From the NCBI GenBank assembly GCA_946811185.2, contig OX328107.1, forward strand, positions 9,885,565 through 9,949,564: 64,000 nucleotides of DNA, written 5' to 3'. The notes under the pieces were generated by a model, which saw nothing but the letters and a program-made list of their open reading frames with translations, did no database searches and had not been told where the DNA came from. This DNA comes from Hippopus hippopus (taxonomy: Eukaryota > Mollusca > Bivalvia > Cardiida > Cardiidae). The position numbers and the translations under genes were made by a program. This document shows, piece after piece, positions 19,931 through 60,069 of the stretch (position 1 is the first letter of the stretch; each line of letters starts with the position of its first letter).

Positions 19931-19940
19931 AGTAGTATAG

Positions 19941-19991
19941 GACGGCTCTTTGTACGTCTGACAGGCCTGGTCAGACGTACAAAGAGACGTC
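19941..19991. repeat. Terminal hairpin of element B, left
   Basis: Arms GACGGCTCTTTGTACGTCTG plus AC (19941-19962) and the inverted counterpart (19970-19991) pair over 22 bp with one mismatch around the 7-nt loop AGGCCTG. It starts 10 bp inside the element end. An identical structure is at the other end. Confidence 0.9.
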
Positions 19992-20159
19992 CCTGTAGGC
20001 CCTACGCTACCTACCTTACAGAGAATTTATCCCCAGTTTGCCTACCATGAAAGAATTTAATTATATCACTTCTACAAAAAATGCCCAAAAAATACCCAGT
20101 TTGCCTACCCTGAGGGAAAATGGGGGGAGGGAAATTTATCCCTACATTGCCGTTTTTTC

Positions 20160-20610
20160 TGCATCCATGAATGATTTCTTCTCTCTAAAAGACTGAGTAC
20201 TGAGCTGGACTTAGTTTTTTTCACCCTATGGATGATTTCTCTCTCTAAAAGCCTGAACACTGAGTTGGACTTAGTTTTTTCACCTATGAATGATTTTCTC
20301 TCTCTAAATGCCTAACCACTGAGTTGGACTTAGACTTTTTTCTGCATCTATGGATGATGATTTCTCTAAAAGCCTGAACACTGAGTTGAACTTTTTTTTT
20401 CTGCATCTATGGATGATTTCTCTCTCTAAAAGCCTGAGTACTGAGTTGGACTTAGTTTTTTTTACCCATATGCTATTAGGATTGATTTATTGTTTCTCTC
20501 TAAAAAGCCTAACCATTGAGTTGGACTTAGTTTTTTCTGTATCTAGGTATGATTTTCTCTCTCTAAAAGTCTGACCACTGAGTTGGACTTAGTCTTTTTC
20601 TGAGTTTTTT
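20160..20610. repeat. Approx. 60-bp spacer repeats, left TIR outer block
   Basis: Units of the type GAGTTGGACTTAGTTTTTTC, CTGCATCTATGGATGATTTC and TCTCTCTAAAAGCCTGA recur roughly every 60-70 bp with variation. There is no coding content. The inverted copy is at about 34730-35190. Confidence 0.85.
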
Positions 20611-20719
20611 TTCTCTCTGGAGTGTAACTCTCTGGAGTGTAACTCTTTGGAGTGTAACTCTTCTAAAAGAAAGAAGTTTGACAATTTGAAGAAATGACAA
20701 TTTTGAAGAAAGATAGAAC

Positions 20720-21420
20720 TTTCGTGGTAGATGGTTAGTCCTGAAAAGGTCTGTTGGGTTAGCTCTGAAAAGAGCTGTGACAATTTGAAGAAATGACAAC
20801 TTGAAGATAGAACTTTCGTCTGACAACTTGAAGATAGAACTTTCGTCTGGCATCTTGAAGATAGATCTTTCGTGATAGATGGTTAGTCCTGAAAAGGACT
20901 GTTGGGTTAGCTCTGAAAAGAGCTGTGACAATTTGAAGAAATGACAACTTGAAGATAGAACTTTCGTCTGACAACTTGAAGATAGAACTTTCGTCTGGCA
21001 TCTTGAAGATAGATCTTTCGTGGTAGATGGTTAGTCCTGAAAAGGACTGTTGGGTTAGCTCTGAAAAGAGCTGTGACAATTTGAAGAAATGACAACTTGA
21101 AGATAGAACTTTCGTCTGACAACTTGAAGATAGAACTTTCGTCTGGCATCTTGAAGATAGATCTTTCGTGGTAGATGGTTAGTCCTGAAAAGGGCTGTTG
21201 GGTTAGCTCTGAAAAGAGCTGTGACAATTTGAAGAAATGACAACTTGAAGATAGAACTTTCGTCTGACAACTTGAAGATAGAACTTTCGTCTGTCAATTT
21301 GAAGAAATGACAATTTTAAGAAAAGATAGAACTTACGTCTGACAATTTGAAGAAAGATAGAACTTTCGTGGTAGATGGTTAGCCCTGAAAAGGGCTGTTG
21401 GGTGTCCTAAAAAGGTCCTG
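20720..21420 (-). repeat. 148-bp tandem array of histone-type stem-loops, left TIR
   Basis: On the minus strand, pairs of stem-loops repeat with 148-bp period at 20737/20761, 20885/20909, 21033/21057 and 21181/21205, plus one at 21381-21396. Each pair is AGCTCTTTTCAGAGCT, AACCCAAC, then AGTCCTTTTCAGGACT or a close variant, 24 bp apart. Between pairs are repeated GAAAGATCTATCTTCAAG and TGTCAGACGAAAGTTC phrases. Open frames of 106 codons here merely follow the repeat (148 is not a multiple of 3) and are not genes. Confidence 0.92.
21381..21396 (-). terminator. Histone-type 3' stem-loop after the 75-aa gene (left)
   Basis: AGCCCTTTTCAGGGCT on the minus strand: 6-bp stem, TTTC loop, followed by AACCATC and CACGAAAG. 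It lies about 42 nt beyond the stop codon, the distance expected for histone-type processing. Confidence 0.7.
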
Positions 21421-21437
21421 GTTTGGAGGTTGTATTT

Positions 21438-21665
21438 TTAAGCACAACCTCCAACCTTTCTGCAGGCTGGGCAGCTACTCGCCGCCCGCCTCTTCAATCT
21501 CTTCAGTTGCTGCTCATCAAGATTAAAGCGCAGCGAAAATGCTGGCTCGTTGTCACCATTCCAATCCTCCGTCACCGGCACAACAAACTCCTTCTTCTTT
21601 TCCTTCTTCTTGGTGGGTAGAAGCGCAAGCTCCCAAAAGTCCATATCTCTAAGTGCAACCTCCAT
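21438..21665 (-). CDS. 75-aa TIR-borne protein, left copy
   Basis: Unknown function. MEVALRDMDFWELALLPTKK starts a protein with a Lys/Glu run, an acidic centre and a C-terminus with basic residues and CPAC...C (SSCPACRKVGGC). The protein is identical to that at 33673-33900 in the other arm, with at least one silent difference, so two copies exist per element. The promoter upstream on the minus strand has CCAAT, TGACGTCA and TATAAAACCCAGCG. Downstream is an imperfect and then a perfect histone-type stem-loop (21381-21396). Conservation of promoter and 3' signal supports a real gene. Confidence 0.75.
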   Translation of the reverse strand: MEVALRDMDFWELALLPTKKKEKKKEFVVPVTEDWNGDNEPAFSLRFNLDEQQLKRLKRRAASSCPACRKVGGCA

Positions 21666-21709
21666 ACCGACTTGAAGAAAATGAACGATGTGCGGGAAAT
21701 AACGCTGGG

Positions 21710-21755
21710 TTTTATAGCTTTTCAGACGGATTGAACTAGTTGACCCATGACGTCA
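21710..21755 (-). promoter_or_regulatory. Promoter of left 75-aa gene (CRE plus TATA)
   Basis: On the minus strand TGACGTCA (21748-21755) precedes TATAAAA (21710-21716), then CCCAGCG. Further upstream is a CCAAT-box (CTGATTGG, about 21820). The layout matches the promoters at 24277-24322, 31851-31896 and 33583-33628. Confidence 0.75.
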
Positions 21756-21994
21756 TTTTCTCCTATGTTTTTCCCGCGTTGGCGTTTCATGCTGTTTTGG
21801 CTCCAAATTAATGTTATCCAATCAGAATTATCGTTGTTTTTTCTAATGGTAAATGTTTTATTGTTGACCAATCTATAGTTTTGTTACATTTTCTTGTTCG
21901 GGTTAGAAAAAACTAGAGTTTGACTATCCTATGACTTTTTTTGATTATGACTCTTCTGATAAAATGAAAAGAAAGATGTTTATTTAAGATAGCT

Positions 21995-22260
21995 AGCCCT
22001 GAAAAGGGCTGTTTTTTGTGCAGAATACACTTTTTTATCCTCCCCTCTTTCTTTCGATTGATTCCATTTTATCTAGCATTTGCATCAGATGCTCAATTTC
22101 ATACCTGATATATCTAAACGTTCTCTTTCTTCTAACCAGAAGAGCAATGAGAGAAAATATGTCAATCCAAACATTATGGGATACTGACCCAGCTTTTAAG
22201 ATAGTTAATGGTGAATGAGAAAAAATTAATCAAGAGTTTACTGTTTTATATGTGTAATGG
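21995..22260 (-). other. Possible small transcription unit in left TIR
   Basis: The inverted counterpart of 33087-33342. A stem-loop (21995-22010, minus sense) with AGCTATCTTAAATAAAC after it and a TATAAAACAG motif about 240 bp before it bracket a short region. No convincing ATG-initiated frame is seen in the sense direction; a 60-codon open stretch including IFSLIALLVRRKRTFKY lacks an ATG at its start. An antisense 66-codon frame (22018-22218) is conserved in both arms but points away from the stem-loop. It may be non-coding, spliced or a short peptide gene. Confidence 0.35.
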
Positions 22261-22299
22261 GTCACTTTTTTTAGGCTTGTTTTGATTTTATCCCTATAT

Positions 22300-23215
22300 C
22301 GCTGGACTTAGTTTTTTCATCCTATGAATGATTTTTTCTCTAAAAGTCTGAGCACTGAGTTGAACTTAGTTTTTTTCTGCATCTATGGATGATTTCTCTT
22401 TCTAAAACCCTGACCATTGAGGTGGACTTAGTTTTTTCTTCACGTATGAATGATTTCTCTTTCTAAAAGCCTGACCATTGAGTTGGACTTAGTTTTTTTT
22501 ACCCATATGCTATTAGGATTGCTTTATTGTTTACTTCTATCCACTACTTGGTCTTTAAGTGGTTTCTGTCTAAAAGCCTGAGCATTGAGTTGGACTTAGT
22601 TTTTTCTTCACCTATGTATGATTTCTCTTTCTAAATGCCTAACCATTGAGTTGAACTTAGTTTTTCTGCATCTATGGATGATTTCTCTTTTAAATGTCTG
22701 ACCATTGAGTTGAACTTAGTTTTTTCTGCATCTATGGATGATTTCTCTTTCTAAAACCCTGAACATTGAGTTATACTTAGTTTTTTCTTCACGTATGAAT
22801 GATTTATCTTTCTAAAAGCCTGTCCATTGAGTTGGACTTAGTTTTTTTACCCATATGCTATTAGGATTGCTTTATTGTTTACTTCTATCCACTACTTAGT
22901 CTTTAAGTGTTTTCTCCCTAAAAGCCTGAGCATTGAGTTGGACTTAGTTTTTTCTTCACCTATGTATGATTTCTCTTTCTAAATGCCTAACCATTGAGTT
23001 GAACTTAGTTTTTCTGCATCTATGGATGATTTCTCTTTCTAAAAAGCCTGACCACTGAGTTGGACTTAGTTTTTTCTGCATCTATGAATTATTTTTCTCT
23101 CTCTAAAAGCCTGAATACTGAGTTGGACTTAGACTTTTTTCTGCATCTATGAATGATTTTTTTCTCTCTAAAAGACTGAGTACAGAGTTGGACTTAGTCT
23201 TTTTCTGAGTTTTTT
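22300..23215. repeat. Approx. 60-bp spacer repeats, left TIR inner block
   Basis: The same family as 20160-20610 (GAGTTGGACTTAGTTTTTTC and related). A roughly 350-bp segment is duplicated in tandem here but single in the right arm. No gene is visible. Confidence 0.85.
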
Positions 23216-23339
23216 TTACTCTCTGGAGTGTGACTCTTTGGAATGTAACTCTTTGGAGTGTAACTCTTCTAAAAGAAAGAAGTTTGACAATTTGAAGAAA
23301 TGACAATTTGAAAAGAAAGATCTTTCGTGGTAAATGGTT

Positions 23340-23403
23340 AGTCCTGAAAAGGACTGTTGGGTTAGCTCTGAAAAGAACTGTTGGGTTAGCCCTGAAAAGG
23401 ACT
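23340..23403 (-). terminator. Three tandem histone-type stem-loops after the 195-aa gene
   Basis: Minus-sense stem-loops at 23388-23403, 23364-23379 and 23340-23355, 24 bp apart, each with a 6-bp stem (some G-T pairs) and TTTC loop, followed by AACCCAAC or AACCATT and then CACGAAAGATC. They start about 24 nt beyond the stop codon of the gene ending at 23427. Confidence 0.72.
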
Positions 23404-23426
23404 GTTTTGGAGGCTGTGTTTTTTCT

Positions 23427-24014
23427 CTACCGACAGCTTTTCTTTGGCTTTTTCGGGATCTTGAAATCAACGTGATTATCAATGTTTTTCCCGTATTTGC
23501 CCTGGCCTGTCATTATTGGTGTAGTTGGCTTTTGATCAACTCGCTGTTTTTTGTGGAGATGGCTATCGTCTTCCTCAGATTTCCGTTTTCTTGGATTTGT
23601 TGTTCTTGGTTGTTTTTCCTTTGGCTGATTTTTCTTCACAACAGTTACGATAGAGTCCACTAACTTGTGAAGATTGGTTTTATCAAACTCAAACTCCACA
23701 GGGATCTTCACAGGAACTGGTGAAATGCGCTGACTCTGTTGGCGTACTGTCTCGACTTTTCTACTGAGCTGTTCGGTGTTTGTGTTTAAAGTTTTAATCT
23801 CCTCCAAATGCCTGTTTAAAGTCTCCAGTTGTTCTAAGATTCGAGTCATCATGGCATCTTGTTTTGAATTTAACTGTTTCATCTCTTCACAAATGTTGTC
23901 CAACACCGTCGGTAGGTTGATAATTGTCGAATTTATAACTGATGAAAGAATGTCTCCATTGTTTTCCACTGGTGGAAAATCGTCCAAGTTGATTTCATCT
24001 AAGTTGTGCTTCAT
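23427..24014 (-). CDS. 195-aa coiled-coil, nuclear-type protein of element B
   Basis: Unknown family. Residues about 40-95 form a likely coiled coil (NICEEMKQLNSKQDAMMTRI, EQLETLNRHLEEIKTL). A basic nuclear-localisation-type stretch is at about 138-160 (NPRKRKSEEDD, HKKQRVDQK) and the C-terminus is basic (KIPKKPKKSCR). It is single-copy, just inside the left TIR. The 5' region (TATAAAACCCAGCG and leader) is closely shared with the gene at 31214, so a promoter duplication is likely. It ends in three stem-loops. Oligomerising DNA- or chromatin-associated role is inference. Confidence 0.75.
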   Translation of the reverse strand: MKHNLDEINLDDFPPVENNGDILSSVINSTIINLPTVLDNICEEMKQLNSKQDAMMTRILEQLETLNRHLEEIKTLNTNTEQLSRKVETVRQQSQRISPVPVKIPVEFEFDKTNLHKLVDSIVTVVKKNQPKEKQPRTTNPRKRKSEEDDSHLHKKQRVDQKPTTPIMTGQGKYGKNIDNHVDFKIPKKPKKSCR

Positions 24015-24105
24015 ATTGAAACTGCTTCCGAATATTGATACTGCTTTCGAAGTGATCGTTAGCTGAGAGTCAAAGAAATGGTGATTGTATGAAAATAACG
24101 CTGGG

Positions 24106-24112
24106 TTTTATA
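24106..24112 (-). promoter_or_regulatory. TATA box of the 195-aa gene
   Basis: TATAAAA on the minus strand followed by CCCAGCGTTATTTTCATAC. It lies about 92 bp upstream of the ATG and is divergent from the promoter at 24277-24322. CAGGTCCGCGCTCTTAA upstream is shared with the promoter at 31116. Confidence 0.7.
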
Positions 24113-24276
24113 CGTTTACAGAGGATTGAAAATTTAAGAGCGCGGACCTGGCAGGAAACACCAGGATTGTACTGTATGACACTGATTTAGGAGTGGTGAA
24201 AAAAACACCGATATAACCATCGATTTGATTGCACAATGTTAATGAAACGCCGACGCGGGAAAAACATAGGAGAAAA

Positions 24277-24322
24277 TGACGTCATGGGTCAACTAGTTCA
24301 ATCCTCCTGTAAAGCTATAAAA
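24277..24322 (+). promoter_or_regulatory. CRE plus TATA promoter of the 68-aa gene
   Basis: TGACGTCA at 24277-24284, GGGTCAACTAGTTCAATCC, then TATAAAACCCAGCG from 24316. The block from CGCGGGAAAAACATAGGAG onward is nearly identical to the promoters of the genes at 31933 and 33673. Confidence 0.75.
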
Positions 24323-24360
24323 CCCAGCGATATTTTACATAAAAACATATTTGTTGCAGG

Positions 24361-24567
24361 ATGGTTCGAATTCTTGTGTGCCCTCACTGCGCAAGCAGAT
24401 GCCAGATAGAGTGTGGAAAATGTTTTGCCATACTTGAGTATCTTGGACAGAAACATAACTGTCCAGATACAGATGAAGGATTTTACGATGATGATGAAGG
24501 TTCATCGACTTGCTGTGAACACTGTGGGTGTGAAGTCACCCCAGTGGATCGGACGGAGGAGTCGTAG
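24361..24567 (+). CDS. 68-aa zinc-ribbon protein
   Basis: Four Cys pairs are spread along the protein: CPHC and CGKC in the first 22 residues, then HNC and CCEHCGCEV near 50-57, with a very acidic stretch between (DTDEGFYDDDEG). It could bind one or two zinc ions. The family is not recognised. The ATG (24361) lies about 45 bp after the TATA box and the stem-loop at 24599 lies 32 nt after the stop, so the whole transcription unit would be about 250 nt, very much like a histone gene in layout. Confidence 0.72.
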   Translation: MVRILVCPHCASRCQIECGKCFAILEYLGQKHNCPDTDEGFYDDDEGSSTCCEHCGCEVTPVDRTEES

Positions 24568-24598
24568 AGCTCGATGTTGTCGTGAAATCCTTTTAAAA

Positions 24599-24633
24599 AG
24601 CCCTTTTCAGGGCTAACCATCTCCAAGAAAAGA
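24599..24633 (+). terminator. Histone-type stem-loop with downstream element, 68-aa gene
   Basis: AGCCCTTTTCAGGGCT (24599-24614), AACCATCTC, then CAAGAAAAGA (24624-24633). The last closely resembles the purine-rich histone downstream element (CAAGAAAGA) that pairs with U7 snRNA, at about the expected spacing. It is the best single match to the complete signal in the window. Confidence 0.78.
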
Positions 24634-24723
24634 TCTTTCTTTCTCAAAATTGTCAAAAGTAAAAAGACTTACTGTCAAAACTAGAAAAAGTTAAAAGTAA
24701 GAAGTAATTATTTTCATGTTTTT

Positions 24724-24729
24724 TTTATT
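24724..24729 (-). terminator. AATAAA polyadenylation signal candidate, zinc-knuckle gene
   Basis: AATAAA on the minus strand about 145 nt beyond the stop at 24874. No stem-loop of minus orientation lies in this interval, so this gene appears to use ordinary polyadenylation. Confidence 0.45.
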
Positions 24730-24873
24730 TTCAAAAGAACTTATGTACAATGAAAAAAATCAAGTCATGAACTGTAAAGACAAAAAATGAATGAAGTGTA
24801 AAGACAAAAAAATGAATGAAAAAATCAAGTCAGTCTTTTTTGTTTAAATTCAATATTGTGTTGAAATCTTTTT

Positions 24874-25725
24874 TCACTCAGTATGTTTTCTTTTTTTCTT
24901 CGGAATGTCAGATTCACATTTGGTTTTACGTTTTCTTGTCCTTTCGTTGTTTTTTAATACCATATCTGGACAGATTTTACCCTTGTGTTTTGTTGATTTG
25001 CAAAAGAAACAGTTCTTTGTTACTCGTTTTTTCTTCTTTTCGTTGTTTTGCTGTTTTTCCTCTCCGTACGAGCAACCCGGTTCTGCAGAAAATTCGTTTT
25101 TTAGATCCAAAGTTTGTTGTTTTCTTAGATTATCATTTGTAGATATTTTTTTCTCTACCTGTTCTGTTATTTTGCAGATTTCTGATTTGGTGATAACCGT
25201 TGTGTCGCTCTGCATGTCTACGGTCTGAGTTTCAACCGATGATGATGTAGCTTGTGGTGAACTTTTTTTCCATTTATTTTCGTTGCAGAATGATTTCAGA
25301 ACACCGACGAATTTCATGTGCTGAAATTCAGCACCCAGTTTCATTGTTGGTGAAATTTCGATGTCATGACTGTGTGGATCCACGTAGACAAAAACGACTG
25401 TTCCTATCTGATTTTCTTTTTCTGGACATTCTTTGGCCCAATGTCCTGCTTCGTTGCATGTAAAACAAATATTTGTTCTCTCACCATTCACCCCATATCG
25501 TTTGTCGATCGTCGCTTGATCCAAAACTCTGTATCTGGTAATACGGTAAACATCTTTTTCTTCTAAATGTTGGTGGGATAAAAATGATCCCACGTAGTTT
25601 CCGATATGTTGAACTTGATACTTTGACGGAACATTGCTGATCTCGTAATCGTGGGTGTATGGATTAACATACAGATGCATCCTCTTTCTAAGTGGTGATG
25701 TACTTTGCAACTTGAACTTGCTCAT
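24874..25725 (-). CDS. 283-aa protein with two CCHC zinc knuckles and a duplicated domain
   Basis: Two zinc knuckles of the exact form CX2CX4HX4C: CFTCNEAGHWAKEC (residues 87-100) and CFFCKSTKHKGKIC (239-252). Two copies of a small domain precede and follow the first knuckle: LYVNPYTHDYEISNVP...GNYVGSF (18-48) and VYVDPHSHDIEISPTM...VGVLKSF (113-146). The C-terminus is very basic with NLS-type runs (RTRKRKTK, PKKKRKH). It is transcribed divergently from PolB across a short shared promoter. Retroviral-type knuckles bind single-stranded nucleic acid, so a role in replication or DNA/RNA condensation is likely by inference. Overall family unknown. Confidence 0.8.
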   Translation of the reverse strand: MSKFKLQSTSPLRKRMHLYVNPYTHDYEISNVPSKYQVQHIGNYVGSFLSHQHLEEKDVYRITRYRVLDQATIDKRYGVNGERTNICFTCNEAGHWAKECPEKENQIGTVVFVYVDPHSHDIEISPTMKLGAEFQHMKFVGVLKSFCNENKWKKSSPQATSSSVETQTVDMQSDTTVITKSEICKITEQVEKKISTNDNLRKQQTLDLKNEFSAEPGCSYGEEKQQNNEKKKKRVTKNCFFCKSTKHKGKICPDMVLKNNERTRKRKTKCESDIPKKKRKHTE

Positions 25726-25794
25726 ATTCTTTTATCAACTGTACTGTCTGAGATTGAGCAGTAGAATGAATAGATTTTCACAACAGTTTTCTCT

Positions 25795-25801
25795 ATTTAT
25801 A
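25795..25801 (-). promoter_or_regulatory. TATA box of the zinc-knuckle gene
   Basis: TATAAATAGAG on the minus strand, about 70 bp before the ATG at 25725. It lacks the CCCAGCG and CRE module of the small genes. Only about 22 bp separate it from the oppositely oriented PolB TATA. Confidence 0.65.
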
Positions 25802-25823
25802 CACTGTTGCAATGGAGAGGTTA

Positions 25824-25830
25824 TATAAAT
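25824..25830 (+). promoter_or_regulatory. TATA box of the element B PolB gene
   Basis: TATATAAATTG on the plus strand. It lies downstream of the first possible ATG (25812), so transcription would begin after that codon; this supports the ATG at 25884 as the true start. Confidence 0.65.
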
Positions 25831-25883
25831 TGTTAGTTTTTCTCACTTCCTGCATTATTGTCTTTTCACTCAGAGCTAAAACG

Positions 25884-28800
25884 ATGGGTAAAAGAAAAAG
25901 AATAATAACCTATTCAGACAGCGAAAGTGACGATGAGGTATTTCCACCAACAAAAAAGAAAAAAACTAGACCGTTGAAAGAAGAAAGTGACAGTGACGAT
26001 GAGATATTTCCACCAACAAAAAAGAAAAAAACTAGACCATTGAAAGAAGAAAGTGACAGTGACGATGAAAGTATCAACTCTAGCTTAGACATGAAAAGTC
26101 TATATGATTTAACAGAAATGGGTAATAAGAAGTCAAGAAAATTTAAAACAGAATCACATGTGCTGATGCTGAGTTTTAAGAAATTTAAAGAATTAACACC
26201 TCAGAGACTACTTGGATTATTTGACGATGTTACCCATGAAATCATTCGAAAGTTAAATGCTAACCCGACGGACATGATTAGAATTACCATCAATCATCCT
26301 TCATTGGATATGGGGATCCATATTCCCTTTTTAACCACAGAACAGTTGCAAGGTGAAACTATGTTGAATGAAATTGAACGAGTTTTACAATCGAATACAG
26401 ATTTCGTCTTGAACGATGGATTCATGACATTTGACATTACACATACAATACCTCCAAGTGGTAACGGAAAATATAGATTATCATCTGAATTAGATTCAAA
26501 GGTTTTTGCCCAGAAGAAAAAATCCATTATTCAAATTGACAATCATGACCAACTATGTTTTGCAAGAGCCATTGTTGTGGGAATTTGCTACAGTGAACGT
26601 GAAAACACCGGAGCATGGAATAGAAAATGGCGTCGTATTCGTCGTTCAAACTCCCCTCTTCAAAAGACTGAAGCTGAGAAATTGTTGAATGAAGCTGGAG
26701 TTTCACCAACACAGCCTGTAGGAATTGATGAATACAAAAAAATTCAAACATTCTTGTATGAAAAAGGCTATGTCATTAAAGTTCATCAACAGTATTCAAA
26801 AGTGGAAAAAATATTTGAACATCCAGAAGTGAAAACCAATAGTAAGATCATACATTTGTACTTTCATCAAAACCATTATGACTACATCAAATCTATCAAA
26901 GGTTTTTTTTGTTGTACATATTATTGTGAGTTCTGTGATGTGGGTTACTCTCACCGGGAAAGTCATGCTTGTTCAAATATCTGCAAAGGTTGTTGGCGCA
27001 AAGGAAAATGTCCATCAGAATTAAAAGAATATGTTTGCAGTGATTGTAGTAGACGATTTTTTAGTGCTGAATGCTTTGAAAATCACAGAATTGTTCAAGG
27101 TAAAGAAAAGAAATCCATTTGTGAATTAGTGAAACTCTGTTCGAAATGTGGTGCACAATATCTTGTCAGAAAGAAAAATCATGTTTGCAATGGAAAGAAA
27201 AGGTGTCATATCTGTAAGAGAATTGTTAACTTTTCTCATCGATGCTATATTCAGCCTTACCAAAGTAAGTTGAACCATGACAGCGATGACGAGACGAGTT
27301 CTTCTGTAGTCAAAAAAACACAGTACATTTTCTTTGATTTTGAATGCAAACAAGACACAGGGGTACACATCCCGAATTATTGTATTGCACACAGAGCATG
27401 CGATGAATGTATCGATAAATCACTTGATTTTCATTGTTCTACATGCAGTGAATTTGAAGAGGGTAGGGAAGTTATTTTTCAAGGTGAAGAAACTTTGAGT
27501 CAATTTTGCAAGTGGCTCTTTTCAAAACATCATAAAGGAGTCACGGCTATTGCCCATAATTCCAAAGGTTATGACGGTCAGTTCATTCTTGGCCATATTG
27601 TCAAAGTTGGGTTAAATCTTCCAAAATTGATCATGAATGGAAACAATATTATGAAGTTAGAGCTGAATGGTGTGCGTCTGATCGATTCTTTCAATTTCAT
27701 GAGCTTTGGTTTGGCAAAATTTCCAGCCACATTTGGTCTTCAAGAAATGAAAAAAGGTTACTTTCCTCACTGGGCAAATACAGATGAATTTTGGAGTTAC
27801 ATTGGACCTTACTTGGATATGTCTTATTACAAACCCGACTCAATGTCTGAAGAGGCTAGGTCAAAATTCATAGTTTGGTATAATGACAAAGTTCAAAAGG
27901 GTGAGGAATTCAATTTTCAGAAGGAGATGGAATTGTACTGTTGGTCAGATGTTGATATCCTCAGACGAGGATGTGCTGAATTCAGAAAGCTGTTTATCGA
28001 ACAGGGTGGTATTTGTCCATTTTTAGAGGCGATTACCATTGCAGATGCCTGTAACAAGGTCTGGCGAAGCAAATATTTGCCAGAAAATCAAATAGCTATC
28101 ATTTCAAGCAAAGACTCATCCAGACGTCGCTTTTCTATGAAAGCGATACGCTGGGTTCAAAGCGTAGCTCGGGAAAAAGGTATTAATATTCAGCATGCAA
28201 AAAATGGTGGGGAAGTTCAAATCGGGAGATATAGTGTAGATGGTTTTCACCGTCAATCAAACACTGTTTATGAATTTCTTGGGGATTTGTATCATGGTTG
28301 TCCTGTATGCTATACAGATCGAAAACAGATCAATCCTATTAATGGGAAATCCATGTCTGAATTGTACGAACGTACTTTTGAACGTATAGCAGATATCGGA
28401 AAAATGGGTTATAATGTAGTGTACATTTGGGAGCACGATTTCGATGCTAAGATGAAGGATAAAGAGTACAAAAAACTCACTGAAAAGTTATATCCACATT
28501 TGGACCCTATCGATCCGAGGGATGGTTTGTCTGGGGGAAGATGTAATGCAATAAAAATTGGCTATGATGTTGATGAAAAAAGCAAGGGGGAAATCAAGTA
28601 CATCGATATCTGTTCTCTGTACCCTTATGTTTGTAAACACAAATCCTATCCTGTAGGTCAACCAGAAATTTTGTCTGCTGAGAATATTGACATGAACAAT
28701 ATTCGACAATATGAGGGGTTAATCAAATGTAAAGTTTTACCTCCAACTGATTTGTTTCACCCCGTTCTCCCAGTTCACTGTAACAACAAAATGATGTTTC

Positions 28801-29876
28801 CACTCTGTATGAAATGTGCAGAAGAAAGTTCAAGCATTTGTAGGCATGGTAAAGAAGAGAGGGCTTTGGTCGGAACTTGGGTTACTTTTGAATTATTCAA
28901 GGCTCTTGACTGTGGTTATCGATTATTGCAAGTGTATGAAATTTGGCATTTCAATTCTGTATCAGATCAGTTCTTTAAACATTATGTGGACAATTTCTTG
29001 AAAATTAAGCAAGAAGCCAGTGGTTATCCAGATTGGTGTCAATCAGACTCAGAAAAAGATCAGTTCGTTTGTGAATATGAGAAGGCGGAAGGTGTTCGTC
29101 TTGATCCAAGTTGTATTAAAAAAAATCCTGGGAGAAGATCATTTGCTAAGATTATGTTGAACTGTCTTTGGGGAAAATTAGCTCAGCGTGAAAAAATGTC
29201 CAAGACGGAATACATCAGTGATCCGTCTAAATATTTTGAATTAGTCACCAATCCCAATTTCATTGTAAAGCATGTAGAAATCTTTGACGAGGACTGTCCA
29301 TTCATCTTGGTTAACTATGAATCAAAGTTGGAACATATTGACACCCACGCTACAGCCAATGTGGTAGTAGGGTCTTACGTAACAGCTTATGCAAGGTTGG
29401 AATTGTACAGCGTTCTTGAAAAGTTAAAAGATAGAGTTCTGTATTTCGATACAGATAGTTGTATGTACATTCACGACCCTGAATTATGGAATCCTCCTAT
29501 TATTAACAGCCGGCTAGGAAAATGGACTGATGAAGAGCCTGCTTGTAAAATTACTCAATTCAGAGGGCTTGGGCCTAAGAATTATGCTTACAAAATGAAA
29601 ACAAAAGATGGAGAAGAGATAAGCAAATGTAAAGTAAAGGGGATTACTCTGGATTACAATACAAAACAGGTGCTGAATTTCGATACATATTCAAAATGTA
29701 CTTTGGATCGCACAATAGAAATCAAAATTCAGTATGATTGTAGAATTAAAAGACACAGAGATAGAACGGTTACCAGTGAACCACAAACAAAAACGTTTCG
29801 CTCTGTATACACCAAGAGAGTTATTGTAAATGGTACTGACACTGTACCCTATGGTTATAAAAGTTTGAGAAAATAA
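25884..29876 (+). CDS. Full-length Polinton-type protein-primed DNA polymerase B
   Basis: 1330 residues from ATG 25884; an in-frame ATG at 25812 lies before the TATA box and is rejected. The N-terminus has an acidic/basic tandem repeat (SDSDDE...PPTKKKKTRPLKEE). A Cys/His-rich region (about 350-455) is followed by exonuclease motifs FFDFEC (about 485), HNSKGYDG (558) and SDVDIL (686). A PD-(D/E)XK-like insert follows (VDGF...YEFLGDLYHGCP, about 785-805). Polymerase motifs A (DICSLYP, 907), B (MLNCLWGK, 1092) and C (FDTDS, 1187) are all present, with no stop or frameshift. It would replicate linear DNA from a protein primer using the TIRs. It belongs to a different PolB subgroup from that of element A. 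The 79-bp gap to the next gene suggests co-transcription. Confidence 0.95.
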   Translation: MGKRKRIITYSDSESDDEVFPPTKKKKTRPLKEESDSDDEIFPPTKKKKTRPLKEESDSDDESINSSLDMKSLYDLTEMGNKKSRKFKTESHVLMLSFKKFKELTPQRLLGLFDDVTHEIIRKLNANPTDMIRITINHPSLDMGIHIPFLTTEQLQGETMLNEIERVLQSNTDFVLNDGFMTFDITHTIPPSGNGKYRLSSELDSKVFAQKKKSIIQIDNHDQLCFARAIVVGICYSERENTGAWNRKWRRIRRSNSPLQKTEAEKLLNEAGVSPTQPVGIDEYKKIQTFLYEKGYVIKVHQQYSKVEKIFEHPEVKTNSKIIHLYFHQNHYDYIKSIKGFFCCTYYCEFCDVGYSHRESHACSNICKGCWRKGKCPSELKEYVCSDCSRRFFSAECFENHRIVQGKEKKSICELVKLCSKCGAQYLVRKKNHVCNGKKRCHICKRIVNFSHRCYIQPYQSKLNHDSDDETSSSVVKKTQYIFFDFECKQDTGVHIPNYCIAHRACDECIDKSLDFHCSTCSEFEEGREVIFQGEETLSQFCKWLFSKHHKGVTAIAHNSKGYDGQFILGHIVKVGLNLPKLIMNGNNIMKLELNGVRLIDSFNFMSFGLAKFPATFGLQEMKKGYFPHWANTDEFWSYIGPYLDMSYYKPDSMSEEARSKFIVWYNDKVQKGEEFNFQKEMELYCWSDVDILRRGCAEFRKLFIEQGGICPFLEAITIADACNKVWRSKYLPENQIAIISSKDSSRRRFSMKAIRWVQSVAREKGINIQHAKNGGEVQIGRYSVDGFHRQSNTVYEFLGDLYHGCPVCYTDRKQINPINGKSMSELYERTFERIADIGKMGYNVVYIWEHDFDAKMKDKEYKKLTEKLYPHLDPIDPRDGLSGGRCNAIKIGYDVDEKSKGEIKYIDICSLYPYVCKHKSYPVGQPEILSAENIDMNNIRQYEGLIKCKVLPPTDLFHPVLPVHCNNKMMFPLCMKCAEESSSICRHGKEERALVGTWVTFELFKALDCGYRLLQVYEIWHFNSVSDQFFKHYVDNFLKIKQEASGYPDWCQSDSEKDQFVCEYEKAEGVRLDPSCIKKNPGRRSFAKIMLNCLWGKLAQREKMSKTEYISDPSKYFELVTNPNFIVKHVEIFDEDCPFILVNYESKLEHIDTHATANVVVGSYVTAYARLELYSVLEKLKDRVLYFDTDSCMYIHDPELWNPPIINSRLGKWTDEEPACKITQFRGLGPKNYAYKMKTKDGEEISKCKVKGITLDYNTKQVLNFDTYSKCTLDRTIEIKIQYDCRIKRHRDRTVTSEPQTKTFRSVYTKRVIVNGTDTVPYGYKSLRK

Positions 29877-29955
29877 TTTTATATCACATTGTTGTGTAGC
29901 AATCAGTCAAAGTAAGTCGGGAAAAATATTAGCCGTTGGTCAAAAAATAACAATC

Positions 29956-30609
29956 ATGTTACCGTTACCAATAGATCTACGTGAAAAAAATTATGGAGAA
30001 TTTGTTCGACAGCATACACTTGATGAACGAACACAGGTTAACATTAAATTTTTCTGTGTGAAAATTTGGATCAAAAAAATGTTTAAGTGGATTGCAAAAG
30101 GAGAAAAGTCCTACAAAGTGTATGGTATAATCAACTTTATTGCGATGATGGTGGACGATTCGGGGTTGGATCTCGATCTCAAGACTTATTTAGCAGATAG
30201 CTGTTTGAAAGACAATGTTATTAGTAAACTGTTTCGATCCACAAGTCGATGGACATTTTTTATCATAGGAACAACAGAAGAAAGTTTTCTTAACGTTCTG
30301 AAAATGAAATCAGTTCTATTTGACTTTTACTTACGCTACAAAAAAGGATCTGTTCATTCCTACGGAGAAACAATGGAAACCATATTAGGGTATATTCTAT
30401 TTGATAGAGATGTTACAGAAGAAGTAGTGAATTCAGCTCTTTCAACAAAAGACGCTTATAGACATGTTGCTCCATTCATAGGACTACGAGATTTCGACGA
30501 TATGGACAGTGAGTATACAATGTTTTTGGGGTATGACCAATTGCATAAAGACATTACGGAATATGAAGACAAATGTGAAACTCGTGGTATTTGCGAATTT
30601 GCATTGTAA
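29956..30609 (+). CDS. Uncharacterised 217-aa protein downstream of PolB
   Basis: Not recognised. Mainly helical, with an aromatic/basic segment (FCVKIWIKKMFKWIAKGEKS), a hydrophobic-acidic middle (IINFIAMMVDDSGLDLDLKT) and an acidic C-terminus (DFDDMDSEYTMF). It has no zinc motif or clear membrane span. It follows PolB by 79 bp without an obvious promoter, so it may be expressed from the same transcript, and AATAAA lies about 315 nt past its stop. A replication-associated role is possible from position only; terminal protein is one candidate, but nothing in the sequence shows it. Confidence 0.7.
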   Translation: MLPLPIDLREKNYGEFVRQHTLDERTQVNIKFFCVKIWIKKMFKWIAKGEKSYKVYGIINFIAMMVDDSGLDLDLKTYLADSCLKDNVISKLFRSTSRWTFFIIGTTEESFLNVLKMKSVLFDFYLRYKKGSVHSYGETMETILGYILFDRDVTEEVVNSALSTKDAYRHVAPFIGLRDFDDMDSEYTMFLGYDQLHKDITEYEDKCETRGICEFAL

Positions 30610-30960
30610 AAAATTAATTGCGAATAATTCATTGTAAATAATTCATTGTGAAAAAATATTTCAGTGTGATTTTTTTCATTGTGAATAATTCATTGTAAAA
30701 AATATTTCAGTGTGATTTTTTTCATTGTCAAGAAAATGTTTTTTATGTTGTATTGTAAAAAATATTTCAGTGTGAATTTTTTCATTGTTAAGAAAATGTT
30801 TTTATGCTGTATTGTAAAAAAAATGTTTCCTTGTGAATTTTTTCATTGTCAAGAAATTTTTTTCATTGTCAAGAAAATTTTTATGATGCATTGCAAAAAA
30901 TGTTTCATTGTTTAGTTCTGTTCAATAAATAAAAGTTTAAAAACAATAGAGCTCTTCATT
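30610..30960. repeat. AT-rich ATTGTAAAAAATATTTCAGTG repeats and poly(A) signal
   Basis: Five or more imperfect copies of TTCATTGTCAAGAAAATGTT and AAAAATATTTCAGTGTGA fill the space after the 217-aa gene. Open frames here only follow the repeat. AATAAATAAA at 30924 is a likely polyadenylation signal for the PolB/217-aa transcript. No stem-loop of the AGCYCT type is present in this interval. Confidence 0.75.
30924..30929 (+). terminator. AATAAA polyadenylation signal, PolB/217-aa unit
   Basis: TTCAATAAATAAAAG gives two overlapping AATAAA hexamers about 315 nt after the 217-aa stop, in a stretch with no histone-type stem-loop. Confidence 0.5.
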
Positions 30961-31115
30961 CTGTTTTTCCCCCAAGACTTGTTCTGTCTACATTTTTTCC
31001 CATACATCGGCTCATAACTTTTTTGCTATATTAGCATGAAACGTAGCATGGAAAAAAATGTATGTGCTTTCTGCCAGGTCCGTGCTCTTTAAAAATTTTC
31101 AATCCTCTGTAAACG

Positions 31116-31122
31116 TATAAAG
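31116..31122 (+). promoter_or_regulatory. TATA box of the 101-aa gene
   Basis: TATAAAGCCCAGCGTTATTTTCATAC. The surrounding 150 bp, including CAGGTCCGTGCTCTT upstream and the AATCACCATTTCTTTG leader, is a close duplicate of the 195-aa gene promoter in inverted orientation. Confidence 0.7.
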
Positions 31123-31213
31123 CCCAGCGTTATTTTCATACAATCACCATTTCTTTGGCTCTCAGCTAACGATCACTTCAAAATCAGTATCAATATTCGG
31201 AAGCAATATCAAT

Positions 31214-31519
31214 ATGGAGCAGATAAATCATCAACTACGTGAGGCTCTCCAAGAATATCTAAATGCAGGTCAACAGTTATTACAACTAAACACTCATTTC
31301 GTAGGAGAGGAGGAACAAAACCAACTACAACGTATAACACAGCCATACAAAGATCTCGGCGAAAGATTAGTTCAACTATTCTTAAAGACAACACCGGATG
31401 TCATTTTGGTTGATATCGAATTTGGGAGGAAGATTACTTTCGATAATGGAGCAATGGTAATCAGAAAAAGAGTTGAAGCATGCCCCATTTGTCAAGCGAA
31501 TTTCGGGTGCTGTCATTAA
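31214..31519 (+). CDS. 101-aa small protein with C-terminal CPxC motif
   Basis: Unknown. The first 60 residues are helical (MEQINHQLREALQEYLNAGQ, LQLNTHF, NQLQRITQPYKDLGERLVQL). The end is VEACPICQANFGCCH, four Cys plus His that could hold a zinc ion. The 5' region is shared with the 195-aa gene although the proteins are unrelated. The 3' end has a stem-loop at 31570-31585. Single-copy in element B. Confidence 0.72.
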   Translation: MEQINHQLREALQEYLNAGQQLLQLNTHFVGEEEQNQLQRITQPYKDLGERLVQLFLKTTPDVILVDIEFGRKITFDNGAMVIRKRVEACPICQANFGCCH

Positions 31520-31569
31520 AAGTGGAAAAACAACGTGAGACGAAAAAAACACAGCCTCCAAAACAAAAC

Positions 31570-31585
31570 AGCCCTTTTCAGGGCT
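31570..31585 (+). terminator. Histone-type stem-loop, 101-aa gene
   Basis: AGCCCTTTTCAGGGCT followed directly by ACCCATCT, which matches the ACCCA flank of true histone messages, then CACGAAAG about 12 nt on. It lies 50 nt past the stop. Confidence 0.75.
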
Positions 31586-31850
31586 ACCCATCTACCACGA
31601 AAGTTCTATCTTTTTTCAAATTGTCATTTCTTCAAAATTGTCAAAACTCAAAAGATTTACAATCAAAAAAAGTCATAGAATAGTCAAACTCTAGTTTTTT
31701 CTAACCCGAACAAGAAAAATGTAACAAAACCACGGGTTGGTCAACAATAAAACATTTAGTATTAGAAATAAAACGGTGATTCTGATTGGACAACATTAAT
31801 TTGGAGCCAAAACAGCATGAAACGCCGACGCCGGAAAAAATAGGAGAAAA

Positions 31851-31896
31851 TGACGTCATGGGTCAACTAGTTCAATCCGTCTGAAAAGCTATAAAT
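31851..31896 (+). promoter_or_regulatory. CRE plus TATA promoter of the 104-aa gene
   Basis: TGACGTCA at 31851-31858, then TATAAAT at 31890-31896 and CTCTGCGATATATTTTCATAC. A CCAAT-type sequence (CTGATTGG) lies about 75 bp upstream. Confidence 0.72.
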
Positions 31897-31932
31897 CTCT
31901 GCGATATATTTTCATACATTTCATTTTTCACA

Positions 31933-32247
31933 ATGGCTTCAAGACCATCACTCCTTGTCACTTGGATGGATGCTGAGCGAAAGTTAACAAGAGCAAGGAG
32001 GCAAATCGTTTTACTTAAACAACGCTTAGTTGGAGTAAGAAAGCGTTATGAGAGGGCTGAGCTTGCTAATAACAGGGTGTTCTGTTATAACCTTCGGATG
32101 AAGGAACTCATTATTGAGGGCATGCTTGAAATGTATTTTCAGTATGTTATTTCAAAAACCGAGCAGGTAGACCGTCTTTTCCGCGAGCAAATCGCCGCTG
32201 AAAGGAGTGAGTCAGACAGCGAATCGACTGATGCTGATACTGAATAA
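31933..32247 (+). CDS. 104-aa basic coiled-coil protein with acidic tail
   Basis: Unknown family. Residues 15-45 are strongly basic and helical (ERKLTRARRQIVLLKQRLVG, VRKRYERAEL), followed by a helical stretch and an acidic serine tail (SESDSESTDADTE). The layout recalls small DNA-binding coiled-coil proteins but lacks a true bZIP signature. It has the common promoter module and ends just before a stem-loop at 32283. The hexamer AATAAA overlaps the stop codon (GAATAAAC). Confidence 0.72.
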   Translation: MASRPSLLVTWMDAERKLTRARRQIVLLKQRLVGVRKRYERAELANNRVFCYNLRMKELIIEGMLEMYFQYVISKTEQVDRLFREQIAAERSESDSESTDADTE

Positions 32248-32282
32248 ACATTTTCAAAAAAATCAGTCCTTCTCTAAAAAAC

Positions 32283-32298
32283 AGCCCTTTTCAGGGCT
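32283..32298 (+). terminator. Histone-type stem-loop, 104-aa gene
   Basis: AGCCCTTTTCAGGGCT, then AACCATTTACCACGAAAGATC. It starts 36 nt past the stop and marks the inner edge of the right TIR, pairing with the stem-loops at 23340-23403. Confidence 0.72.
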
Positions 32299-33086
32299 AA
32301 CCATTTACCACGAAAGATCTATCTTTCTTCAAATTGTCATTTCTTCAAATTGTCAAACTTCTTTCTTTTGGAAGAGTTACACTCCAAAGACCCACACTCC
32401 AAAGAGTAAAAAAACTCAGAAAAAGACTAAGTCCAACTCAGTACTCAGTCTTTTAGAGAGAAAAAATCATTCATAGATGCAGAAAAAAGTCTAAGTCCAA
32501 CTCAGTATTCAGGCTTTTAGAGAGAGAAAAAAATCATTCATAGATGCAGAAAAAACTAAGTCCAACACAGTGGTTAGACTTTTTAGAAAGAGAAATCATC
32601 CATAGATGCAGAAAAAACTAAGTTCAACTCAATGGTCAGACATTTAAAAGAGAAATCATCCATAGATGCAGAAAAACTAAGTTCAACTCAATGGTTAGGC
32701 ATTTAGAAAGAGAAATCATACATAGGTGAAGAAAAAACTAAGTCCAACTCAATGCTTAGGCTTTTAGACAGAAACCACTTAAAGACCAAGTAGTGGATAG
32801 AAGTAAACAATAAAGCAATCCTAATAGCATATGGGTAAAAAAAACTAAGTCCAACTCAATGGGCAGGCTTTTAGAAAGAGAAATCATTCATACGTGAAGA
32901 AAAAACTAAGTCCAACTCAATAGTCAGGGTTTTAGAAAGAGAAATCATCCATAGATGCAGAAAAAAACTAAGTTCAACTCAGTGCTCAGACTTTTAGAGA
33001 AAAAATCATTCATAGGATGAAAAAACTAAGTCCAGCGATATAGGGATAAAATCAAAAAAAGCCTAAAAAAAGTGACCCATTACACA

Positions 33087-33342
33087 TATAAAACAGTAAA
33101 CTCTTGATTAATTTTTTCTCATTCACCATTAACTATCGTAAAAGCTGGGTCAGTATCCCATAATGTTTGGATTGACATTTTTTCTCTCATTGCTCTTCTG
33201 GTTAGAAGAAAGAGAACGTTTAAATATATCAGGTATGAAATTGAGCATCTGATGCAAATGCTAGATAAAATGGAATCAATCGAAAGAAAGAGGGGAGGAT
33301 AAAAAAGTGTATTCTGCACAAAACACAGCCCTTTTCAGGGCT
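33087..33342 (+). other. Possible small transcription unit in right TIR
   Basis: TATAAAA at 33087-33093 and a stem-loop at 33327-33342 (AGCCCTTTTCAGGGCT followed by AGCTATCTTAAATAAAC) delimit about 250 bp. The longest sense open stretch lacks an initiating ATG, while a 28-codon ATG frame starting near 33161 is hydrophobic. Conserved in both TIRs; coding status unclear. Confidence 0.35.
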
Positions 33343-33582
33343 AGCTATCTTAAATAAACATCTTTCTTTTCATTTTGTCAGAAGACTCATAATCAAAAAA
33401 AAGTCATAGGATAGTCAAACTCTAGTTTTTTCTAACCCGAACAAGAAAATGTAACAAAACTATAGATTGGTCAACAATAAAACATTTACCATTAGAAAAA
33501 ACAACGATAATTCTGATTGGATAACATTAATTTGGAGCCAAAACAGCATGAAACGCCAACGCGGGAAAAACATAGGAGAAAA

Positions 33583-33628
33583 TGACGTCATGGGTCAACT
33601 AGTTCAATCCGTCTGAAAAGCTATAAAA
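33583..33628 (+). promoter_or_regulatory. CRE plus TATA promoter of the right 75-aa gene
   Basis: TGACGTCA at 33583-33590 and TATAAAACCCAGCG from 33622, with CTGATTGG (CCAAT box) near 33515. Mirror of the left-arm promoter. Confidence 0.75.
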
Positions 33629-33672
33629 CCCAGCGTTATTTCCCGCACATCGTTCATTTTCTTCAAGTCAGT

Positions 33673-33900
33673 ATGGAGGTTGCACTTAGAGATATGGACT
33701 TTTGGGAGCTTGCGCTTCTACCCACCAAGAAGAAGGAAAAGAAGAAGGAGTTTGTTGTGCCGGTGACGGAGGATTGGAACGGTGACAACGAGCCAGCATT
33801 TTCGCTGCGCTTTAATCTTGATGAGCAGCAACTGAAGAGATTGAAGAGGCGGGCGGCGAGTAGCTGCCCAGCCTGCAGAAAGGTTGGAGGTTGTGCTTAA
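33673..33900 (+). CDS. 75-aa TIR-borne protein, right copy
   Basis: Same protein as the left copy at 21438-21665 (residue-for-residue identical), with WELALLPTKKKEKKKEF near the start and SSCPACRKVGGC at the end. A silent difference in the codons for GND shows the arms are not perfectly homogenised. The stem-loop at 33942-33957 follows the stop by about 42 nt, preceded by an imperfect one ending in ACACCCA. Confidence 0.75.
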   Translation: MEVALRDMDFWELALLPTKKKEKKKEFVVPVTEDWNGDNEPAFSLRFNLDEQQLKRLKRRAASSCPACRKVGGCA

Positions 33901-33941
33901 AAATACAACCTCCAAACCAGGACCTTTTTAGGACACCCAAC

Positions 33942-34601
33942 AGCCCTTTTCAGGGCTAACCATCTACCACGAAAGTTCTATCTTTCTTCAAATTGTCAGA
34001 CGTAAGTTCTATCTTTTCTTAAAATTGTCATTTCTTCAAATTGACAGACGAAAGTTCTATCTTCAAGTTGTCAGACGAAAGTTCTATCTTCAAGTTGTCA
34101 TTTCTTCAAATTGTCACAGCTCTTTTCAGAGCTAACCCAACAGCCCTTTTCAGGACTAACCATCTACCACGAAAGATCTATCTTCAAGATGCCAGACGAA
34201 AGTTCTATCTTCAAGTTGTCAGACGAAAGTTCTATCTTCAAGTTGTCATTTCTTCAAATTGTCACAGCTCTTTTCAGAGCTAACCCAACAGTCCTTTTCA
34301 GGACTAACCATCTACCACGAAAGATCTATCTTCAAGATGCCAGACGAAAGTTCTATCTTCAAGTTGTCAGACGAAAGTTCTATCTTCAAGTTGTCATTTC
34401 TTCAAATTGTCACAGCTCTTTTCAGAGCTAACCCAACAGTCCTTTTCAGGACTAACCATCTACCACGAAAGATCTATCTTCAAGATGCCAGACGAAAGTT
34501 CTATCTTCAAGTTGTCAGACGAAAGTTCTATCTTCAAGTTGTCATTTCTTCAAATTGTCACAGTTCTTTTCAGAGCTAACCCAACAGTCCTTTTCAGGAC
34601 T
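33942..34601 (+). repeat. Histone-type stem-loop plus 148-bp stem-loop array, right TIR
   Basis: Plus-sense stem-loops at 33942, 34118/34142, 34266/34290, 34414/34438 and 34562/34586. The pairs are spaced 24 bp and repeat every 148 bp. The first follows the 75-aa gene; the others have no gene directly before each of them. Confidence 0.92.
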
Positions 34602-34729
34602 AACCATCTACCACGAAAGTTCTATCTTTCTTCAAAATTGTCATTTCTTCAAATTGTCAAACTTCTTTCTTTTAGAAGAGTTACACTCCAAAGAGTTACA
34701 CTCCAGAGAGTTACACTCCAGGGAGAAAA

Positions 34730-35190
34730 AAACTCAGAAAACGACTAAGTCCAACTCAGTGGTCAGACTTTTAGAGAGAGAAAATCATACCTAGATACAG
34801 AAAAAACTAAGTCCAACTCAATGGTTAGGCTTTTTAGAGAGAAACAATAAAGCAATCCTAATAGCATATGGGTAAAAAAAAAACTAAGTCCAACTCAGTG
34901 CTCAGGCTTTTAGAGAGAGAAATCATCCATAGATGCAGAAAAAAAAAAGTTCAACTCAGCGTTCAGGCTTTTAGAGAAATCATCATCCATAGATGCAGAA
35001 AAAAGTCTAAGTCCAACTCAGTGGTTAGGCATTTAGAGAGAGAAAATCATTCATAGGAGAAAAAACTAAGTCCAACTCAGTGTTCAGGCTTTTAGAGAGA
35101 GAAATCATCCATAGGGTGAAAAAAACTAAGTCCAACTCAGTACTCAGTCTTTTAGAGAGAAGAAATCATTCATAGATGCAGAAAAAACGG
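34730..35190. repeat. Approx. 60-bp spacer repeats, right TIR outer block
   Basis: The mirror of 20160-20610, with AAAACTAAGTCCAACTCAGT and GAAATCATCCATAGATGCAG phrases. No gene. Confidence 0.85.
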
Positions 35191-35348
35191 CAATGTAGGG
35201 ATAAATTTCCCTCCCCCCATTTTCCCTCAGGGTAGGCAAACTGGGTATTTTTTGGGCATTTTTTGTAGAAGTGATATAATTAAATTCTTTCATGGTAGGC
35301 AAACTGGGGATAAATTCTCTGTAAGGTAGGTAGCGTAGGGTCTACAGG

Positions 35349-35399
35349 GACGTCTCTTTGTACGTCTGACCAGGCCTGTCAGACGTACAAAGAGCCGTC
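35349..35399. repeat. Terminal hairpin of element B, right
   Basis: Mirror of 19941-19991: 22-bp arms with one mismatch and loop CAGGCCT, ending 10 bp before the element border. Confidence 0.9.
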
Positions 35400-35409
35400 A
35401 TATACTACT

Positions 35410-35415
35410 TATATG
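35410..35415. repeat. Target site duplication of element B, right copy (TATATG)
   Basis: Directly follows TATACTACT. Identical to 19925-19930. Confidence 0.92.
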
Positions 35416-56102: not shown

Positions 56103-56137
56103 AAAAAATTTAAGTGAAATAAATTATAAAAATAAGT

Positions 56138-56926: not shown

Positions 56927-56986
56927 AATATTTAATAATGGCTAAATAAATATATAATATATTTTTTTATAATATATTATATATAT

Positions 56987-58201: not shown

Positions 58202-58212
58202 TTTTATATATG

Positions 58213-58629: not shown

Positions 58630-58642
58630 TTTTTTTTTATAG

Positions 58643-60030: not shown

Positions 60031-60069
60031 CTTGTTTTATATATAAAAAATAAAAGTATTTAAATAAAA

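Follow-up and report, generated by a model that had tools for sequence, protein, structure and literature searches.

A 15.5-kb mobile element in the genome of the bivalve Hippopus hippopus carries short non-histone genes that bear the 3' signals of host replication-dependent histone genes together with some of their promoter boxes. The element lies in a stretch of 64,000 nucleotides (nt) of contig OX328107.1 (assembly GCA_946811185.2, positions 9,885,565 to 9,949,564), hereafter the window. Judged from the sequence, the messages of these genes are likely to be processed like histone messages, a reading to which we give a probability of about 0.84. In animals, stem-loop-ended messages that lack poly(A) are known for histones. 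A sequence-only reading of the window had proposed that the element mimics histone 3' ends, and this proposal is supported by matches to a model built from host histone genes and by retention of the stem-loops in other copies of the element. That reading stood as far as the 3' ends were concerned and had overlooked the promoter boxes common with some host histone genes.

The 26 histone-type stem-loops first noticed were all recovered, with the same coordinates and strands. Tested against the consensus type NGYYYUUHUHARRRCN (6-bp stem, 4-nt loop, invariant second G-C pair), 25 of them match strictly with at least five of six pairs, and the exception, at 20737, is off by one stem base. The window outside the element holds a single additional match, at 36105, and 200 dinucleotide shuffles of the window contain 1.44 matches on average and 6 at most. 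Twenty of the stem-loops are housed in the terminal repeats, ten per repeat, and 16 of those 20 in 148-nt tandem arrays, eight per side. Given these repeats and arrays, the 26 copies amount to six distinct gene-end sites and not to 26 independent events. These sites follow the genes for proteins of 195, 68, 101, 104 and 75 amino acids (aa) and a short frame, read by eye as broken in the window copy, that precedes the stem-loop at 33327 (21995 in the left repeat). At each of the six sites the stem-loop has the orientation of the adjacent gene, as had been claimed. Proximity to the stop codons also held, with a corrected range of 23–50 nt at the five clear sites in place of 24–50: 23 nt for the 195-aa gene, 31 for the 68-aa, 50 for the 101-aa, 35 for the 104-aa and 41 for the 75-aa gene, the last of which has eight further stem-loops in a row after its first one. 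The element, its stem-loop genes and their ends are as follows.

19931..35409, unstranded: whole element, 15.5 kb, with ends AGTAGTAT and ATACTACT, inserted in the fibre-like gene of a Polinton
19931..22848, unstranded: left terminal inverted repeat, 98.1% identical to the right arm over 2,927 aligned positions
20737..21220, minus strand: left tandem array of 148-nt units, eight stem-loops in doublets
21381..21396, minus strand: stem-loop of the left 75-aa gene, 41 nt past the stop; 46.0 bits with the host histone model
21438..21665, minus strand: 75-aa Cys-rich gene, left copy
21995..22010, minus strand: stem-loop of the short broken frame, left; 28.5 bits with the host histone model
23340..23403, minus strand: three consecutive stem-loops behind the 195-aa gene, the last one 46.5 bits with the host histone model
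23427..24014, minus strand: 195-aa gene, coiled-coil and basic as described by eye
24361..24567, plus strand: 68-aa Cys-rich gene
24599..24614, plus strand: stem-loop of the 68-aa gene; 39.3 bits with the host histone model
31214..31519, plus strand: 101-aa gene, also in other element copies
31570..31585, plus strand: stem-loop of the 101-aa gene; 48.1 bits with the host histone model, 28.5 bits with Rfam
31933..32247, plus strand: 104-aa gene, also in other element copies
32283..32298, plus strand: stem-loop of the 104-aa gene; 49.3 bits with the host histone model
32484..35409, unstranded: right terminal inverted repeat, about 2.93 kb
33327..33342, plus strand: stem-loop of the short broken frame, right; 26.2 bits with the host histone model
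33673..33900, plus strand: 75-aa gene, right copy
33942..33957, plus strand: stem-loop of the 75-aa gene, right; 46.0 bits with the host histone model
34118..34601, plus strand: right tandem array of 148-nt units, eight stem-loops in doublets

The host histone genes used for comparison come from the 1.07-Gb assembly (34 contigs) that contains the window. Scoring of 75 of 305,864 candidates placed a histone cluster at 40.57–41.47 Mb of contig C15, and six host genes (H1, H2A, H2A.X, H2B, H3 and H4, named by eye from their proteins) were set against seven element modules: one from every distinct site and, in addition, the final unit of the right array. The host also encodes the RNA-binding domain of SLBP, in two pieces at 6.98 Mb of contig C11 (PF15247, above the curated cut-off). 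For another bivalve, Lucina pectinata, a passage of PMC6210712 describes histone messages with the stem-loop. Host histone ends consist of a GGCCCT or GGTCCT stem, a spacer mostly beginning with AC, a GA purine box and a TGTCA box, the last present in six of six genes. Element modules have AGCCCT or AGTCCT stems (hairpin type AGCCCUUUUCAGGGCU, host type GGCCCUUUUCAGGGCC), and the stem variants CCC/GGG and TCC/GGA are common to both. A histone-like downstream element had been suspected from the sequence, and the comparison with host gene ends bears this out: purine and TGTCA boxes match in order and in spacing. The purine box stands at +12/13 in all six host genes and at +13/14 in six of the seven element modules; the TGTCA box starts at +31 to +35 in 6/6 host genes and at +34 to +38 in 7/7 modules, and TGTCA occurs in about the same range at 102 of 9,676 background positions (1.05%). 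In the host the TGTCA box is invariant in all six histone genes (loci L050, L053, L063 and L064), 31–35 nt after the stem-loop and beyond the purine box; such a box behind histone genes is not known to have been described.

Model searches sharpen this match. A covariance model built solely from the six host histone genes (R1) recovers 16 of the 26 at E<0.01, the best with 49.3 bits and an E of 2e-8, and the ten that it misses each directly precede another stem-loop. In the window outside the element, including both flanking Polinton copies, it gives nothing with an E below 0.5. A second model, a sequence model confined to the part downstream of the stem-loop (R2), has all of its 32 matches with E up to 10 inside the element, eight of them with an E below 0.05. 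Rfam Histone3 matches 13 of 26 stem-loops with E of 0.0002–0.057. The controls were ten IMG/VR contigs, chosen for their histone-like hairpins and representing about five distinct sites; these chance hairpins reach at most 15.9 bits with the host model, so that the element sites, at up to 49.3 bits, pass the covariance comparison foreseen in the sequence-only reading. The IMG/VR scans, for family-B polymerase (PolB) and for three stem-loop patterns, returned one marginal PolB match and those ten chance-hairpin contigs, none of them reaching the Histone3 gathering score, and a stem-loop pattern scan of the genome_contigs collection found nothing. Across 17 sequences (16 of the 26 window stem-loops plus that of the PolB contig L004, described below), which form 13 distinct rows, the second stem pair is G-C in every row. 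Three of the six pairs vary on both sides, one of these solely via L004, and both the percentage paired and the covariation score lie above all 500 shuffles. Chance as the sole origin of the stem-loops is ruled out by the window shuffles and the IMG/VR hairpins; duplication as the sole origin was rejected as well, though it does explain how six sites became 26 copies.

Other copies of the element retain the stem-loops at their gene ends. The genome holds at least 34 copies of the element polymerase, at 93–100% identity and 21 of them without internal stops. A stem-loop follows the 68-aa gene in all 30 copies fetched, the window copy included; in three of the 30 a longer stretch separates this gene from the polymerase, and gene and stem-loop lie further out. 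Over 27 copies this stem-loop diverges by 0.009 per site, compared with 0.144 for the preceding spacer, 0.120 for the sequence that follows and 0.081 for the coding part. The ratio of nonsynonymous to synonymous polymorphism of the 68-aa gene is 0.20 over 24 of the 30 copies (three were dropped for gaps and three lay outside the analysis), one of the 24 having an internal stop. Five other right arms have stem-loops after the 101- and 104-aa genes in 5/5, and in both right arms long enough one follows the 75-aa gene or its longer counterpart. Behind the 195-aa gene, stem-loops were found in eight of nine other copies (L058, L066–L070, L072 and L073), and the full frame of 195 aa is present in four of five dispersed copies sampled.

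The likeness extends to the other end of the genes. A TTCAATCC box stands upstream of the TATA box in 5/5 clear stem-loop genes and in 0/3 other element genes; its TCAATCC core recurs in the promoters of host H2A, H3 and H2A.X (three of six) and is absent from the three other element genes and from all ten Polinton genes compared from around the element. The promoter of the 195-aa gene has the 18-mer CCAGGTCCGCGCTCTTAA in common with host H1 and a 15-mer in common with H3. In 200 shuffles of the element promoters the longest common word did not exceed 15, a length reached twice. The genome contains this 18-mer of the H1 promoters 159 times and its reversed control not once; among the 100 places listed nine are in the histone cluster, and five of five others sampled are promoters of element 195-aa genes with stem-loops behind. 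TGACGTCA boxes precede the 68-, 104- and 75-aa genes and also the small zinc-finger gene of L004. In C9:16304319-16355591 the H1-type 18-mer appears five times, about 12.8 kb apart, which suggests a tandem run of element copies. The promoter regions in the window are the following.

24105..24155, minus strand: promoter of the 195-aa gene, with CCAGGTCCGCGCTCTTAA (24134-24151), TTTTCAATCC box and TATAAAA
24260..24330, plus strand: promoter of the 68-aa gene, with TGACGTCA, TTCAATCC box and TATAAAA
31085..31135, plus strand: promoter of the 101-aa gene, with TTTTCAATCC box and TATAAA
31845..31905, plus strand: promoter of the 104-aa gene, with TGACGTCA, TTCAATCC box and TATAAA
33575..33640, plus strand: promoter of the right 75-aa gene, with TGACGTCA, TTCAATCC box and TATAAAA

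These features fit a mechanism in which host histone transcription factors would recognise the promoter boxes common with the element, SLBP would bind the A-U-based stem, and the host SLBP and U7 machinery would cut the messages just past the stem-loop. The resulting messages would be stable, intronless and without poly(A), and would be present mainly in S phase. The polymerase, 217-aa and zinc-knuckle genes have no histone-type signals and would undergo ordinary polyadenylation. The element would probably benefit by receiving its small accessory proteins at a time of abundant replication factors and nucleotides, with the histone route exporting and stabilising the messages. Taking both gene ends together, we lean towards the wider view that a selfish DNA family has dressed a set of unrelated non-histone genes as histone genes at both ends, by promoter boxes in front and by stem-loop, U7 site and TGTCA box behind, with accessory proteins timed to host DNA replication; L004 suggests a wider origin or persistence of the arrangement, and the arrays may titrate SLBP.

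Several observations weigh against histone-type processing. The first stem pair is A-U in the element and G-C in all six host genes, and of five measures of stem covariation compared with shuffles, two fail to stand out from them. Rfam Histone3 scores in the window all fall under the gathering score of 34; the host H2A genes themselves reach 33.5 bits with this family. Ten of the 26 stem-loops, the upstream partners in doublets or triplets, begin 24 nt ahead of another stem-loop and lack their own downstream element. Behind the purine box GAAAG (31588-31615 and alike) follow TCTTTC-like letters, so that a second hairpin can be folded by eye, and such pairing might hide the box from U7. An Rfam search gave no host U7 gene, nor any match in control genomes; a U7 pattern search gave 33 matches, of which 30 are near-identical and look like one repeat family and the other three have no convincing 3' hairpin. 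TCAATCC is absent from the promoters of host H1, H2B and H4, the H4 and H2B stretches being near-identical. Among other element copies, the 195-aa gene of L059 is followed by no stem-loop in the 195 nt after its stop, and at the 33327 site five other arms show a clear stem-loop in L051 and L055, a weak one in L057 and none in L052 and L056. The other six PolB relatives from public genomes (contigs of 3–8.5 kb) show no histone stem-loop. Finally, AATAAA or ATTAAA signals occur near several stem-loop genes; AATAAA is about as frequent as composition predicts, by our estimate, and it therefore carries little weight, also for a division of the element's gene ends into two classes.

The last of these points, with AATAAA motifs lying downstream of several stem-loop genes, would suit an alternative in which the stem-loop ends are captured host flanks that are weakly used, most transcripts reading through to be polyadenylated further on and the stem-loops providing a minor alternative end at best. 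The departure of the A-U pair from all six host genes would suit it too, and a passage of PMC1924863 reports poly(A) signals behind histone hairpins in C. elegans and Drosophila. Without use such a flank should drift, yet the stem-loop of the 68-aa gene is kept in 30/30 copies and diverges at 0.009 between neighbours at 0.12–0.14 (27 copies), and stem-loops are retained behind other small genes too; we consider captured flanks quite unlikely. The placing of many copies in tandem arrays inside the terminal repeats could instead point to hairpins that act at the level of DNA or replication (as cruciform, origin or packaging sites), with the histone likeness secondary. Such signals would not be expected to share the orientation of the gene at six sites or, at the five clear ones, to follow the stop by 23–50 nt; host histone genes are matched by the downstream half taken by itself and also by the promoters. 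This explanation is very improbable. It is also conceivable, if rather unlikely, that histone-type processing is used for a purpose other than S-phase timing, such as evading poly(A)-dependent surveillance or silencing, or titrating SLBP. The eight stem-loops beyond the first one of the 75-aa gene, which exceed the needs of one message end, speak for such a purpose, whereas the histone promoter boxes held in common indicate a common transcriptional timing. In the 148-nt units (34118-34601 and 20737-21220) each doublet has the downstream element only after its second member, and these units are possibly an SLBP sponge or a processing back-up. Histone-like processing of the small-gene messages remains our preferred reading.

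Like animal replication-dependent histone genes, the element's stem-loop genes have short uninterrupted frames, a stem-loop soon past the stop, an ACC-type spacer and purine and TGTCA boxes, and they have the TCAATCC promoter core in common with three of six host histone genes. They differ in the A-U first stem pair, in the stem-loop doublets, triplets or arrays at some ends, and in encoding no recognised histone: a scan of seven element proteins, and one of the 68-aa protein, found no histone domain. Pfam matches the 68-aa protein weakly to FYDLN_acid, below the curated cut-off (E 0.0014), perhaps only by virtue of its Cys and acidic residues, and a large protein search found no homologue of the 195-aa protein. 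Three further genes of the element have no stem-loop.

24874..25725, minus strand: 283-aa zinc-knuckle gene (zf-CCHC), with AATAAA at 24724 on the minus strand
25812..29876, plus strand: 1354-aa family-B DNA polymerase (Pfam DNA_pol_B_2, E 2.8e-43)
29956..30609, plus strand: 217-aa gene, with AATAAATAAA at 30924

The 217-aa protein, whose gene adjoins the polymerase, is 87–99% identical in 11 other copies and matches no known family; its fold model is of low confidence (mean predicted local distance difference test score of 37), and a by-eye impression of an RNase III-like protein found no support.

With Polintons/Mavericks and adintoviruses the element has in common the family-B polymerase, inverted terminal repeats and a 6-bp target duplication, TATATG, which flanks it at 19925-19930 and 35410-35415. 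Its terminal repeats of 2.9 kb and its histone-type gene ends set it apart. Among the eight element proteins scanned with Pfam and PHROGs there was no RVE integrase, and no capsid, protease or A32-type ATPase, in a search in which Pfam also misses the protease- and capsid-like genes recognised by eye in L004. The Polinton-type label of the sequence-only reading is borne out by polymerase, terminal repeats and target duplication, but not by integrase, capsid, protease or ATPase; by its sequence, the element is related to Polintons but lacks parts that define them, and it would have to obtain integration functions from another source.

PolB relatives in other public genomes comprise seven contigs of 3–9 kb in bacterial bins, most of them fragments. 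PolB has an RVE integrase gene as neighbour in L003 and L004; in L002 the integrase match is under the curated cut-off. L004 (CALIZB010000033.1) encodes a family-B polymerase and an RVE integrase, along with protease- and capsid-like genes identified by eye and without Pfam match. It also contains a histone stem-loop that scores 35.8 bits with Rfam Histone3 (gathering score 34), 28 nt past the stop of an 89-aa C2H2 zinc-finger gene; gene and canonical stem-loop occupy L004:8042-8380. L004 thus resembles the element in having a small gene, here for a zinc finger, with upstream TGACGTCA and ATTGG and a stem-loop near the stop, but its single stem-loop has a G-C base and no TGTCA box, and it has an integrase. 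The zinc-finger gene may belong either to the Polinton-like element or to the contig's host; a passage of PMC11071296 states that some adintoviruses carry zinc-finger genes.

The fibre-like gene into which the element is inserted (named by eye) has an uninterrupted relative at 56987-58201, and the surrounding Polinton encodes the A32-type ATPase. Two Polinton copies are present in opposite orientation, one up to 19930 and continuing at 35410-36222, the other at 55299-64000, about 70–88% alike where aligned. Just beyond the Polinton's fibre-like gene lies an array of 28-nt tandem repeats (36286-37800; 47 overlapping 300-nt matches listed), to which the stretch 5435-5961 is related. For a gene at 42002-43228 the best-matching named relatives come from Mercenaria, a clam, and from other bivalves, at no more than 54% identity, and unnamed relatives reach 72%, in line with a bivalve host.

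No report of histone-type ends in mobile elements or DNA viruses was found in the literature searched, most subscription journals lying outside its reach, and no precedent was found for the putative expression strategy of this Polinton-type element. If the proposed processing is true, a mobile element with six histone-type gene-end sites would break the rule that such messages belong to histones, and its small genes would give SLBP and U7 a naturally occurring set of substrates other than histone messages. The TGTCA box, being common to host and parasite, now has a function that can be tested. For virus-like DNA more generally, histone-type gene ends would offer a route for coupling expression to S phase.

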